Below are positions 43,001 to 49,000 of a stretch of 64,000 nt of DNA, in pieces. Source of the stretch: Membranipora membranacea (Eukaryota > Bryozoa > Gymnolaemata > Cheilostomatida > Membraniporidae). The DNA lies in assembly GCA_914767715.1 (NCBI GenBank), contig OU612074.1, forward strand, positions 16,542,062-16,606,061, read 5' to 3'. The notes beneath the pieces are model-generated. The model was not told where the DNA came from and made no database searches. It saw nothing but the letters and a program-made list of their open reading frames with translations. Made by a program: the position numbers and the translations under genes. The first letter of the stretch is position 1. Every line of letters begins with the position of its first letter.

Positions 43001-46000
43001 TATGGTCATATTTGAGTTCATATTTGAGTTAAACCTGGTTCAAGCTTGATCCAACCATCCCTGATCCAACTTGCCTACATTTGGAGTTGATCCCCCTTGG
43101 GCCAGGTAATTTAAGCAACTGAGTATTCGTGCCTATGTTTCAATTTACTGCAACATTATAGGTTGTCATGATGCTAACCTCAATATTGTATTACAGTCTC
43201 TCACATTTTGGTCTGATGGTGCGTACTGGTGTGAGGGAACAGTAGACAGCAAGCTACACCAGTGCCAGGTCCAAGCTGACACCAACTACTACAACATCAG
43301 AACACGAGGATACTTTGTACCCCGTCAAACTGGTGACTACCGATTCATGATCAAAGCAGATGATACATGTAAACTGTACATGGCTATCAATGGTACCGAG
43401 GAAAACAAGGTACAATTCTTAACAATCATAGTTATGCGTCAAGATAAAGTTGTCTCCTTGTTTGATGGGAGCATGCAACTCCAACTTCAGGCTGAAATTG
43501 AATTTAGCGCATTCTAAAATAATATGGATTATGTTATAAAAGATAGTGCAAATTTAATCTGACAGATTTCATTTGAAATATTTGTGGCGCATTATGGTTG
43601 AGTTTTCTGAATAATCAAAATGCCAAATTTGTTTATAAAACAGCGGTGCATTATGGGATTTGTTTTTATAACCTGTATTTCATCTATTTCAGACACTGGT
43701 TGCCTCCAGCCCGAGCTACAGCCACAGGTCATACTCATATAGGCCAGAGCAGCAGAGCGAGAGGTATACTCTCGAAGCTGGTAAACCTTACTATATGGAG
43801 GTAAGCATTTCCATATACTTAAATATCGCACTGCAAAGTTGCTTTAAATTTTATTTCAAAATTTGACTTTTGGACTTTTGTGTTCTGTCCAACCATCAGG
43901 GCCACTGTACTCTTTATTCTTATCTATTTTAAAACAATCTATCGCCATCCTGGACTATGCATTCCCAAATTAAATAGATCATGGCCAGTGTCCAAAACTA
44001 TTAAGTTATCGATTGTTTTCAGTTTGATAGCTAGCTAGATATATTGGCCAAGTATGTCTTTAAGATATTAGTCAGATGTATGGTTATTGCAACAACTCAA
44101 CAGTTTCTATACTTAATGATTTTAGTTTGTATCAGGAGAGCATTGGTCGTCAGCGCACATGTACATTGGTGCCAAGTATTTTGGCGGCAACCTTGTAGAA
44201 ACTATTCAGGGTAACATTATGTCAGATAATTAGGGATATCCCATAATGCAATTTGCTGTTATTCATAGGGGGATCAGTTCTCCTAAAACATAAAAGGGAA
44301 CTAACTGATCAGCCTTGAAATGCCACTCAGAAATTGCATTGAGGGATTTTTTGCAGTATGCAAAAGTATTGGTTATGGAGGTGGATTTGTCATTTTCTGC
44401 TCAAATATTAGTGTGTTGGATAATTTGATGTCACAGCTGAGTCAACTCATTAATTTCTTGCACTCACAGAAAACTAAATGATGATTATGCTTGAAACATA
44501 GTCCGGTGGATTAGGTATCTGTTGCTTTACTTGTTGAGGAGGACAGTTAGGCTTCCATAAACGTTTTCACATGCATTGATTTCCGACTATTACAGGAGAG
44601 CATTGGTTATATGGACACATGTATATTGGCGCCCAATATTATGACAATAATCTTGTAGGAAATGTTGAGGGTAATATACAGGAGCGGATAATTAGGGTAT
44701 GCTGATGAATTACCCAGAATGCATTTGTGAGGTAATATCTGGGAGACTCTTAGACCTGCTCACCCTGGAGACTACAGTCATAGTTGCATGATGGGAGCTT
44801 TTGTTGGGTGCCCAACTTTGTGTTTGTTTGGAGGTGGTTTGGTATTTCACTTTAAATATCTGTTGAAAAGTCTTACGTTCTTATTTGAGAATCAAATTTC
44901 ATGACTTGGTCAAATTAGACTTGTATTTTCTTGCACTCTCTTTACTATATAAGCCGAAATGATGCTTTTAAATAACGGGTTTGATTCAATGGTTCAGCGT
45001 AATCTGTCTCAGAATGTTTGATGGCCAGATGCTGATTTACTAGCGATGATGGCGTGGTCAGACTTCTTTCCTTCATTTGTTGTTTAAATACCGCATACCA
45101 CACGCTCCACTTTGCATTGTCAGATAGGATTTGTATTCTATCACTAACTGTAAAAGTTGTGAGAAAAAGTTTGCTGGTACAGTACTCTGCTAAGAAATAA
45201 TGAAGTTGCCTTGCATGCAAAAAATAGTATTATTAAGAAGTAGTTAAAAAATTGTATTATTAATATAAAGGAGTCAGGACTGGTCTGACGGTTAAGGGTA
45301 TGGACTTGTGATCTTATGATCCAGGTTCGATTCCCGGCGCCGGCTGTCATTTCTGATTTGGCACTGGCAAGCCATTCATCCTAGCCAGGTCTGTTCAGAT
45401 GAGGACCATAAATACAGGAGCTGGTCTACTGTGTGCTTGCATGCAGTATAAAGATCCCCCTCTGCCTCTTCGAAAAAAGAGTAGCCGGCAACGGCGGGCA
45501 AGGGTATAGGGTACTACCCCACACAAGCCACCCGAGCTTAAGGGGGCCCGTTAAATAGGGCGGTCAAATAAGACCTAGTGCATAGAAAAAAAAATGCACA
45601 TGTGTCTCAAAAAGCAGTCTTTGCCCCAGGCAGTGCGGTATTTAGGGTGTCTAAGCCGACCTGAAAGGCATCGTTCGAGGTAGTTCTGGATAAAGTGTTC
45701 GTCATCAGTGAATATCTGCATTACACGATTTTTTGAATGAGTGTTAACTAGAGTGTCGAGATCATAATTAAGTTGTAATCCGAGTGAGGAGGCATCTTTA
45801 AATATCTTGCGCATGTCCTTCTTATCTCGTTGATAAATGGCAGGATAGAGGACTGGTAGACAATACATTATAGATTATATATGTATGTATCTCCTCTCTT
45901 TAATTTCCCGCTGCGACTTTTCCAGTATGTGACAGGGGAATATAGACATGGTGCTCATGTTTTCATTGGGGCTAAGATGTTTGAAACATCATTGGTGAAT

Positions 46001-49000
46001 CGAATTGATGGTATGGTAAACTATCTATTTACCTGTTAGGATTGCCTTTTGTTGTGAGAAGCACCCAGTCCTTCTCTTATTGTCTTTGAAATGTGTAATA
46101 TTAATATCCAACTTGCTGTCTTGGTTTCTATAGTATGTGACAGGGGAATATGGGGGTGGCGCACATGCGTTCATTGGGGCTAAAATGTACGCTACGTCAC
46201 TTGTCGAAAGAATAAATGGTATGGTAAACTGTTTGAAGCACTTTGAATGAATTCCTGTTTTAAACTGCACCCTGTCCATATTTTATAGTGTTAAAATGTT
46301 GTTTTATTTTGTCTCATATTCAAACACTCTCCCTCTGAAATGCGACGACACTTAACATTATTCTAATCAAATAATATCCCATAATGCAATTCTCTAATAG
46401 TCAAGAAAAGAGCAAGTCTAGCTCTGGGAATTCCAAGACTGAATCACATTGAGGGATCCTCAATGGTACCCATTGAACACTGCCTAGGACACAATGCAAA
46501 TTTGTCATCATTTACTCATTTCTTAGAATGCAACTTCAAACTTTCGGATTGTATGTGTATTTCAGACATTCCTCCCAAATGTTTAGATCTTGCCAACTAG
46601 GAAATAGCTAAAGATCCTTTTTTTAGTCCAGTCATGAAAATATCACACCCTGGTGATTCATTTGATCGCGACTCTATATTTAGTTCCTGTCGGGGGAATA
46701 CAGGAAGTTGGCCTATATTTACATTGCTGCTGCATACTATCGCAACGGCCAGCTTGCGCTCAAAGTTGATGGTAATAAACTAAAACCTCTGCCCCGTTTT
46801 CATACCCCAGGGTTAATTCAAAACTTTTACGTATTGGGAATATTGGTGTGAGAAGCAGTTTTCACTATGACCTACCTAATTGCATGTCTCGGATTTCTGT
46901 ATCAACTTATGGTGTAGTAGGGATGTCAAAGTGTCTAAGCCCACCCTTACCACCTTGGGAAAATTAAGACAGAGCTAGCCCGTTTTCCCATCCTACTAGA
47001 TGATTGCAAATGGCACATCAGTAGAGATTGGAGATATTCCGTGAGTTATAAAATGGACTAAGCTGGGTCAGCAGGGAGAAGATAAATTGCCAGTACAGAG
47101 AATTAAGGGGGAGGGAGGCTCATTATAATGTGGACGGATAATCATACTGTCAATTGAAATTTGAACAGCGTTCAAATTGATATAACCAAAATAATGTTAA
47201 AGCCATTATTTTTATGCAACCTTGAATTGATTTCTGTTCATGATCTTCTATTGATGGTTTACATGATAATGATACCTACTATTGTACTATACAGTATGTA
47301 GCAGGGGAGTGGGTGTCAGGTGCTCATGTATTCATCGCTGCTCAATTTTACGGTGGTGGAAAACTGGTTCATACTGTCGAGGGTAAAGAAAATCAATCAT
47401 AGTATTAGTGAAGCTTAACCCATATCTATTTCCAAAATTTTCTTTCCAAATAACTCGTAGAAATCAGTGTACGTCGTGACAATGGTGGGGAATCTATCAG
47501 CGAATTATTGAGCTTAACCAAATCTTTGCTAAGGCACCTAATGAAAAATACTCAATGTTTGGCAGGTTTGCATATTTGCTAGCTAAAAACAAAAGCGTTT
47601 CACTGTCCTTGTAGATAGTATTGCTTATTTTCTCCAGTTGTAAAATATCAATAGCTGAGTTTAGGATGCGGAATTAAGAGGTTTTTGATGCTGCTTTGGT
47701 TTAACTGATTACTTTATAACCATATCTGATTGTGTTATCTATGCAGTATGTAGCTGGTGAATACAGCTCTGTTGCTAGCATTTATATTGGCGCTGCTTTC
47801 TACGAGAGCGGAAAACTCATTCAAACTGTTGATGGTAAAATTTGTTTATTGCTCAGCAAACAATGTTCACCGCTTTTGCTTCTTTCAAAGTTGCTTCGTG
47901 ATAAAGCTTTAAAATCTATTAAAAAGGGCTAAGTTATGGACAAGAAAGAAAATTGATTCCTGATAATTAGTTCGAAAAAAATCACTGCTTATTTCTTACA
48001 TGCGACCCAGGGATCAAGGACTGTTGTTATTCCACATTTCTGTAACTCCATGCACATTTTTCGTTGTGTGTTATCTTTTTGTTTTCCCAGCACTAATCCA
48101 AGTTTTATTAACTTTGTTTTCTTTTCACTCATGTGGGCTCATATATTCTAATAACATTTTAAATTCTAATCAGCTGACTGAACAGAAATTTCTTTCTCAC
48201 AAAAAAACGCTTCTGATTGTGTGTAGTGTGTAACTTGGATATTTTAAGCTATTTTGTGTTTCATATATCTGTATTTGCAGTCGTTCAAAATTCAATTACT
48301 CTTGTTCATGAAATGGCAAAAGTTTTTACTAGTTCGTTAAGACCAGGCTTGGAGATATCCCATTAAAACACAAAAACCCTACACCCTTGTCTACATGCAT
48401 CACATAAAACCATATGCTATTTATAGGTCGTGTTCAGCCTGAGGTCCAAAAAGTACAGATCTCAAGTGTGGAGAATAAGGAGACACTCCGACTCACACTC
48501 ACTGATCTCTCCACAAGAACCGCAACTAAAGAAGTCCAGCAGATTGAGATGACATACAGTAACACTGACGGACAATGGAAGATCGCTATGATGGGTGTCT
48601 TCACTGGTGAGTGATAAAAACACTGAATTAAATTACTTCTCCTGGAACAGAAATACTAAGATAACCTTATATACTTAGAACCACCGATATATATTCATAA
48701 CAATATTTGAACACTCAACACAGGGACTGATCTGATACTGATCTGATAGGCTGTCCCTACTATCATGAATAATACAGCCTGGGAAATTGTCTTGTTACAA
48801 CACTGCAAACAGTAATACATCGCAGTCAGTTTAAATGATTTGGGCTTTTTGCTAGAATAGTACTAGGCACTGCCTGGTTTTGCACTCCCCCCCCCTGTTT
48901 GGCAAAATAAAGGTAATAAGGCTATTCATGATAAGGAGTTCAAAGAATAAACCTATGTACATTTGTTGTTGTTGTACATTAGAATGATTAAAAGTCACAT

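Follow-up and report, generated by a model that had tools for sequence, protein, structure and literature searches.

A stretch of 64,000 nucleotides (nt) from chromosome 10 of the bryozoan Membranipora membranacea (positions 16,542,062-16,606,061; hereafter, the window) carries, inside a gene of the fibrocystin-L (PKHD1L1) type, an array of seven homologous exon-sized blocks (V1 to V7) that lies between two constant exons. The array itself is real, and its best reading, predicted from the reading frame and from selection, is a likely one: that this gene uses one of six exons at a time. Tandem exon duplication would have produced the array, and the pre-mRNA would include one of the six intact copies (V1 and V3-V7) between exons 13 and 15. 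With none or more than one of them the frame would shift and an early stop would follow, so that only one-exon transcripts would encode the protein. The chosen exon is predicted to supply the two final strands of an N-terminal PA14 domain together with the loop that joins them, which would correspond in structure to calcium-binding loop 2 (CBL2) of the PA14 lectins. An Asp-Asp pair would come from a constant exon and an invariant Glu from each variant, with the next four residues varying, and exon choice would thereby change what the PA14 domain binds, be it sugar or protein, and leave the rest of the protein unaltered.

The exon array, its reading frame and its gene

The gene model comes from a self-trained exon scan and is a phase-consistent chain on the + strand that starts with an ATG at 31079 and reaches almost to the end of the window, with one gap, as it lacks an exon between 51041 and 52048. 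The blocks were scored with a slot query made of two slot sequences alone, both from the bryozoan Watersipora. The array and the constant exons around it are as follows (positions are those of the window).

43197..43409, + strand: constant PA14 exon 12, with the Asp-Asp pair KADD (Pfam PA14/GLEYA; Flo1/Flo5 profile match at DD)
43693..43800, + strand: constant PA14 exon 13, with a phase-0 end (...KPYYME) and a strong donor (gene model)
44126..44210, + strand: variant exon V1 (14a), 85 nt, ends (G) (slot-query match, splice sites)
44586..44670, + strand: variant block V2 (14b), 85 nt, open, no AG acceptor (ccg), probable dead exon (splice sites; raised branch omega)
45926..46010, + strand: variant exon V3 (14c), 85 nt, ends (G) (slot-query match, splice sites; own omega below 1)
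46134..46218, + strand: variant exon V4 (14d), 85 nt, ends (G) (slot-query match, splice sites)
46684..46771, + strand: variant exon V5 (14e), 88 nt, ends (G) (slot-query match, splice sites)
47295..47382, + strand: variant exon V6 (14f), 88 nt, ends (G) (slot-query match, splice sites)
47747..47834, + strand: variant exon V7 (14g), 88 nt, ends (G) (slot-query match, splice sites; own omega below 1)
48427..48606, + strand: constant exon 15, whose first 2 bases complete a Gly (gene model; aligns with Watersipora)

Among 21,698 stop-free windows of 29 residues in six frames, the seven blocks take ranks 1-7 with the slot query (scores 75 to 32; the next is 28). Every block is 1 mod 3 in length and passes from phase 0 to phase 1, which fits the phase-0 end of exon 13 and the two bases that exon 15 requires. 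Out of the 128 possible subsets of the blocks, seven leave the next four exons open and every one of these is a single exon, while exon skipping and all 21 variant pairs lead to early stops. This is the layout of a mutually exclusive cluster, in which homologous exons that agree in phase follow one another in tandem between constant ones. A GT donor is present in all seven blocks and an AG acceptor in six, the exception being V2, which has ccg at the acceptor position. An initial annotation of this DNA had proposed seven variant exons with this frame logic, by which one and only one exon fits, and had noted the missing acceptor of 14b; the frame logic, the missing acceptor and the seven homologous blocks all stand, but the usable variants would number six, as 14b is probably dead.

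Aligned identities among the variant exons range from 0.62 to 0.78. Their flanks score about as random introns do, the exceptions being the stretches that follow V1/V2 and V3/V4 and those that precede V6/V7. The DNA of V7 has a single match in the genome (339,339,785 bases in 18 contigs), which is V7 itself. For the other 37 exons of the model, no convincing unaccounted duplicate was found on the + strand of the window, where the best score was 34 (0.24 of the self score).

The initial annotation had also called the gene fibrocystin-L-like with a PA14 domain, and several lines of evidence agree with this. In Pfam, the joined model protein matches Kringle, TIG, and PA14, with GLEYA just below the cut-off. 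Its best relatives are two fibrocystin-L-like proteins of Watersipora subatra (2 of 13 matches among 5,285 candidates), to which it is 48-52% identical in the main aligned stretches, Kringle included. About 26 kb past the window is colinear with crustacean and oyster fibrocystin-L, and a stretch within it matches the Watersipora G8 domain at 69%. Together, the TIG repeats, the N-terminal PA14 domain (also recovered in the structural model below), the G8 region and the colinearity with annotated members place the gene in the fibrocystin-L (PKHD1L1) family, whose annotated relatives have about 4,000-4,500 residues. A search for relatives of 417-1,326 residues gave one match in 2,524 candidates, a bacterial PA14 protein. 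The 5' end of the gene model adds two exons:

31079..31169, + strand: first coding exon, with the ATG and, by eye, a signal-peptide-like sequence (gene model, phase consistent; aligns with the N-terminus of Watersipora protein P0002)
34768..34948, + strand: constant Kringle exon (Pfam PF00051, E 4.8e-20; also in both Watersipora homologues)

The Kringle (34358-34948) is an N-terminal feature of this fibrocystin-L that both Watersipora homologues share. In the annotated P0002, the motif AAFSEHLQIPV recurs some twelve times, nearly unchanged, at a junction of exons, which may reflect misannotation of an intronic repeat.

Selection, splice sites and paralogues

The proportion of nonsynonymous differences (pN) is below that of synonymous differences (pS) in 21 of 21 variant pairs, and the ratio of the corresponding rates (dN/dS) is 0.15-0.87 in 20 of them, the pair V5-V6 being saturated. 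Codon models fitted to three topologies give a global omega of 0.167, 0.196, and 0.169 and reject an omega of 1 at p 4e-11 to 8e-11. Taken together, the terminal branches of the six intact copies show purifying selection, with an omega of 0.120 or 0.137 (p 1.5e-7, 5.7e-10). Individually, omega is below 1 for V3 (p 0.006-0.008) and V7 (p 0.001-0.002), and that of V7 lies below the rest (p 0.03-0.055). In neutral simulations, the chance that all six copies with AG stay open with both AG and GT is 5.9e-3 at 0.1 substitutions per site; the chance that all six remain intact falls to 1.3e-8 at 0.45 and 2.5e-10 at 0.6 neutral substitutions per site. The closest intact pair, V3-V4, has a pS of 0.52, or by our own arithmetic about 0.45 per lineage.

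V2 behaves differently and provides an internal control, in that the missing acceptor and a significantly raised omega (above the shared omega at p 0.019 and 0.009) fall on one and the same copy. From 210 bases upstream of V2 to 60 bases inside it there are five in-frame AG dinucleotides, four of which close the frame; the fifth, at 44601, keeps it open at a score of -4.7, and its use would remove the conserved Gly-Glu. Because its normal acceptor is gone, the alternative AG is poor and selection is relaxed, V2 is probably a dead exon, which would leave six usable variants.

Splice sites were scored with our own approximate metazoan matrices. The seven variant donors are weaker than the 35 constant donors (4.0-6.5 vs. 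a median of 8.5, p 0.0009), and the variant acceptors, V2 excluded, also differ from the constant ones (p 0.017). Weak donors are as expected for regulated exons. A paralogue on the same chromosome provides a comparison:

Chromosome 10, 18.01 Mb (C10:18009001-18018900), 1.4 Mb from the array: paralogue, with 56% identity in the PA14 exon

In its 9.9 kb the paralogue has one slot exon, YISGEYGGYAGIYVGAAYYNTHLVQTVDG, which scores 76 against at most 8.4 in any other frame or place (its ungapped form at the same place apart) and has the donor gtaagt (score 9.8). The array is thus found in one of two close paralogues, and a single exon with a strong donor in the paralogue, beside weak sites in the array, is the pattern one expects once exons turn into regulated alternatives. 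Signals on the ancestral copy diverge: the phylogeny of variants and paralogue is poorly supported (only 48-50 at deep nodes), the paralogue is nearest V7 in this tree, and the Watersipora slot scores best with V1. Both Watersipora fibrocystin-L records list a longest contig of the same size, so that residence of the pair on one chromosome may be ancient in bryozoans. Chromosome 11 holds a more distantly related PA14 exon (C11:8127001-8136900, - strand), with 43% identity and one TGA in the aligned stretch.

Several observations weigh against a choice among all six copies. Taken alone, V1, V4, and V6 are indistinguishable from an omega of 1 (the test has low power for these three), V1 and V6 sit at the upper omega bound in one topology, without significance, and V5 is borderline (p 0.05-0.13). 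The omega of V2, though raised, is itself indistinguishable from 1. The acceptors of V1 and V5 are weak (1.3 and 1.2), and both Watersipora gene models have one slot exon each, of the length of V1.

The predicted PA14 fold and the proposed swapped loop

Structural inferences were made from a predicted model of the Watersipora PA14 domain. In structure comparison this model matches PA14 domains, and in it the slot exon accounts for the two final strands and their connecting loop. Model residue 150 aligns with residue 240 in Flo5 and Flo1, 218 in Cea1A (5a3l) and 230 in KpFlo2 (6hos). With numbering anchored at this end, which assumes a gap-free match over the last 16 residues, Glu134 of the model corresponds to N224 of Flo5 and Flo1, the calcium-ligand Asn of CBL2, to residue 202 of the Cea1A entry (N257 in the numbering of its paper, offset +55), and to residue 214 of KpFlo2 (F212+2, the Asn position). 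The Glu thus falls on the CBL2 Asn position in all four lectins that could be checked (Flo1, Flo5, Cea1A, and KpFlo2). In 6m8m, presumably MhPA14 (the code was not found in the MhPA14 paper), it corresponds to residue 181, the calcium ligand Asp181 of MhPA14.

This Glu is present in 7/7 variants and invariant in 10/10 bryozoan slots. Ranked by entropy, the next four residues come first of 27 in variability among contiguous fours, and they read HWSS, YRHG, YGGG, YRKL, WVSG, and YSSV in the six intact variants. They correspond to positions I-IV of CBL2, which make most of the N-acetylglucosamine (GlcNAc) contacts in Cea1A. The variable residues had initially been placed in loops between conserved strands; entropy and model bear this out and narrow the location to the loop equivalent to CBL2 of the PA14 lectins. 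The Asp-Asp pair of calcium-binding loop 1 is also present, in that the profile aligns KADD with the VDD of the Flo proteins, and it occurs in the paralogue as well.

A calcium-binding lectin is a plausible reading of these data, with a protein-binding surface as a strong rival. It goes no further than plausible because Glu replaces Asn, the Tyr is not kept, and neither the Glu nor the Asp-Asp pair is universal. In detail, the Flo-type Asn ligand of CBL2 is not matched, the Tyr that stabilizes the loop two residues earlier in Flo5 is Ser, Thr, or Ala here, and among other fibrocystin-type proteins the Glu is kept in 7 of 18 rows and the Asp-Asp pair in 8 of 18 (by eye; 29 proteins were chosen, and the 11 without a profile match were dropped). 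By BLOSUM score, moreover, the CBL2 window ranks second of 27. Chemically, a Glu would be acceptable as a calcium ligand.

Proposed choice of one copy, rival explanations and known systems

How one copy would be chosen may be reflected in the introns, three of which contain homologous stem-loops:

44236..44353, + strand: intronic stem-loop downstream of V1 (CCCATAATGCAATT ... AATTGCATTGAGGG) (homology, folding)
44708..44800, + strand: homologous stem-loop downstream of V2 (homology, folding)
46372..46460, + strand: homologous stem-loop downstream of V4 (homology, folding)

The stretches after V1, V2, and V4 fold at -45.5, -46.9, and -28.0 kcal/mol, respectively. Among the three sequences, 5 of 23 pairs have changes on both sides, which is too few to claim function. 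Of nine combinations in which stem-loop arms can pair across introns, eight lie at or under the 1% null level, but palindromic repeats would also give such cross-pairing. The motif has nine matches in the window with at most two mismatches (1.19 expected), three of them folded, and related single motifs, for which no second arm is seen, turn up at other places in the window. The exact 14-mer was not found in the 49,800 bases of loci L007-L011; three loci listed in this check overlap the window. In a published model, exclusive splicing arises from the duplication of an exon together with an adjacent stem-loop (PMC6071210). The anatomy seen here would fit this model, on evidence that is thin. 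Selection for frame, through the decay of faulty RNA, would in principle suffice for the choice of one copy. As for a Dscam-type docking site, the top-scoring 18-nt window in the first intron gave -96.4 over the six introns targeted, a value equaled in 0/12 shuffles; yet genuine intron segments of this gene reach it in 9 of 54 cases, which leaves the candidate without support. The best 18-nt window of the last intron reached -97.0 (0/8 shuffles). No docking site is supported among the 18-nt windows of the first and last introns, the ones tried, and this weighs against one-of-six choice.

The evidence for one-of-six choice must be set against other accounts of the array. One or two copies might be used (for instance V7, which is nearest the paralogue, or V1), the rest being decaying relics of duplication; V2 shows that copies do die here, V1, V4, and V6 are singly compatible with neutrality, V1 and V5 have weak acceptors, and the Watersipora models make do with one slot exon of V1 length. 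This account is nonetheless unlikely, since six copies keep frame, AG, and GT with no stop (a neutral chance of about 1e-8 at 0.45 substitutions per site), the joint terminal omega is 0.12-0.14, and V3 and V7 each reach p < 0.01. That mixed splicing serves as an off switch, with out-of-frame products fed to nonsense-mediated decay so that the array sets the level of the protein and not its surface, is very improbable: the early stops from skipping and from all 21 pairs would suit it, but one poison exon would presumably suffice, and neither purifying selection at the protein level nor a PA14 core kept in six copies would be needed. An artefact of assembly or gene merging is hardly credible, as nothing was found in its favor and against it stand a long-read chromosome assembly (PMC10290214), exon identities of 0.62-0.78, mostly near-random flanks and the single genome match of V7.

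A more serious contender accepts that the exons are alternatives and takes the swapped loop for a protein-protein or structural surface with no sugar or calcium site, which we consider somewhat short of an even chance. The loss of the Flo5 Asn and Tyr speaks for such a surface, as does the patchy occurrence of the Glu and the Asp-Asp pair in fibrocystin-type proteins; the Asp-Asp pair in both the gene and its paralogue, the use of Asp as a ligand in MhPA14, and variation that falls on the sugar-contact positions speak against it. One-of-six choice is compatible with either kind of ligand. A bolder reading joins several of these proposals, namely, that the six exons retune CBL2 in a calcium lectin situated close to the tip of a very large surface protein, that the array is there to recognize microbes, food, or other colonies, and that the three duplicated stem-loops, through pairings that compete with one another, steer which copy is chosen in the 5' half; jointly, these are doubtful. 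RNA-seq run ERR6464929, from the sequenced specimen, is deposited and makes exon usage testable (PMC10290214).

Among known systems, the exon 4, 6, and 9 clusters of insect Dscam1 are mutually exclusive exons of a surface recognition protein. They share with the bryozoan array tandem homologous exons between constant exons, inclusion of only one (predicted here) and variable extracellular residues. The bryozoan array differs in encoding PA14 instead of immunoglobulin sequence, in being one cluster of six usable copies, and in that no docking site was detected. With the tandem mutually exclusive exons of PMC6071210 it has in common similar length and phase, homology, and an exon duplicated with an adjacent intronic stem-loop, although here the stem-loop is found only after V1, V2, and V4. 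In the Epa/Flo adhesins, PA14 lectins of yeasts in which the CBL2 loop sets the choice of sugar, the PA14 fold (modeled here in a homologue), the Asp-Asp pair and the focus of variation on the CBL2-equivalent loop recur; the yeast loops, however, vary between separate genes and the bryozoan loops between exons of one gene, where Glu takes the place of the Asn ligand. Animal PKHD1L1/fibrocystin-L proteins share with this gene the TIG repeats, PA14, and the colinearity of the downstream exons with annotated members (G8 stretch included); the N-terminal Kringle, also present in Watersipora, and the exon array set it apart. A partial literature search, mostly without subscription papers, found no described exclusive-exon array in PKHD1L1/fibrocystin-L, in a PA14 domain or in bryozoans, in line with the original remark that no case was known for a PKHD1L1-type protein. 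If used as predicted, the array would represent exon-choice diversity in fibrocystin-L and in PA14, on residues that decide ligand choice in the microbial PA14 adhesins, and would provide a candidate for a diversified surface receptor in Bryozoa. With its naturally varied loops on a single, constant PA14 framework, it could also serve to probe what animal PA14 domains bind.

Elsewhere in the window, a Pfam search of other open reading frames (ORFs) gave nothing in six of six. On the - strand, two similar ORF copies (18465-19176 and 23436-23804) resemble C-type lectin-like exons by eye and have no Pfam match at E 0.05. In the V2-V3 intron (44671-45925), no tRNA was called and a reverse-strand ORF (45575-45874) had no Pfam match; by eye, a tRNA-like stretch, GGTTCGATTCC, near 45325, followed by this ORF, suggests the tail of a short interspersed nuclear element (SINE) or other retroelement.

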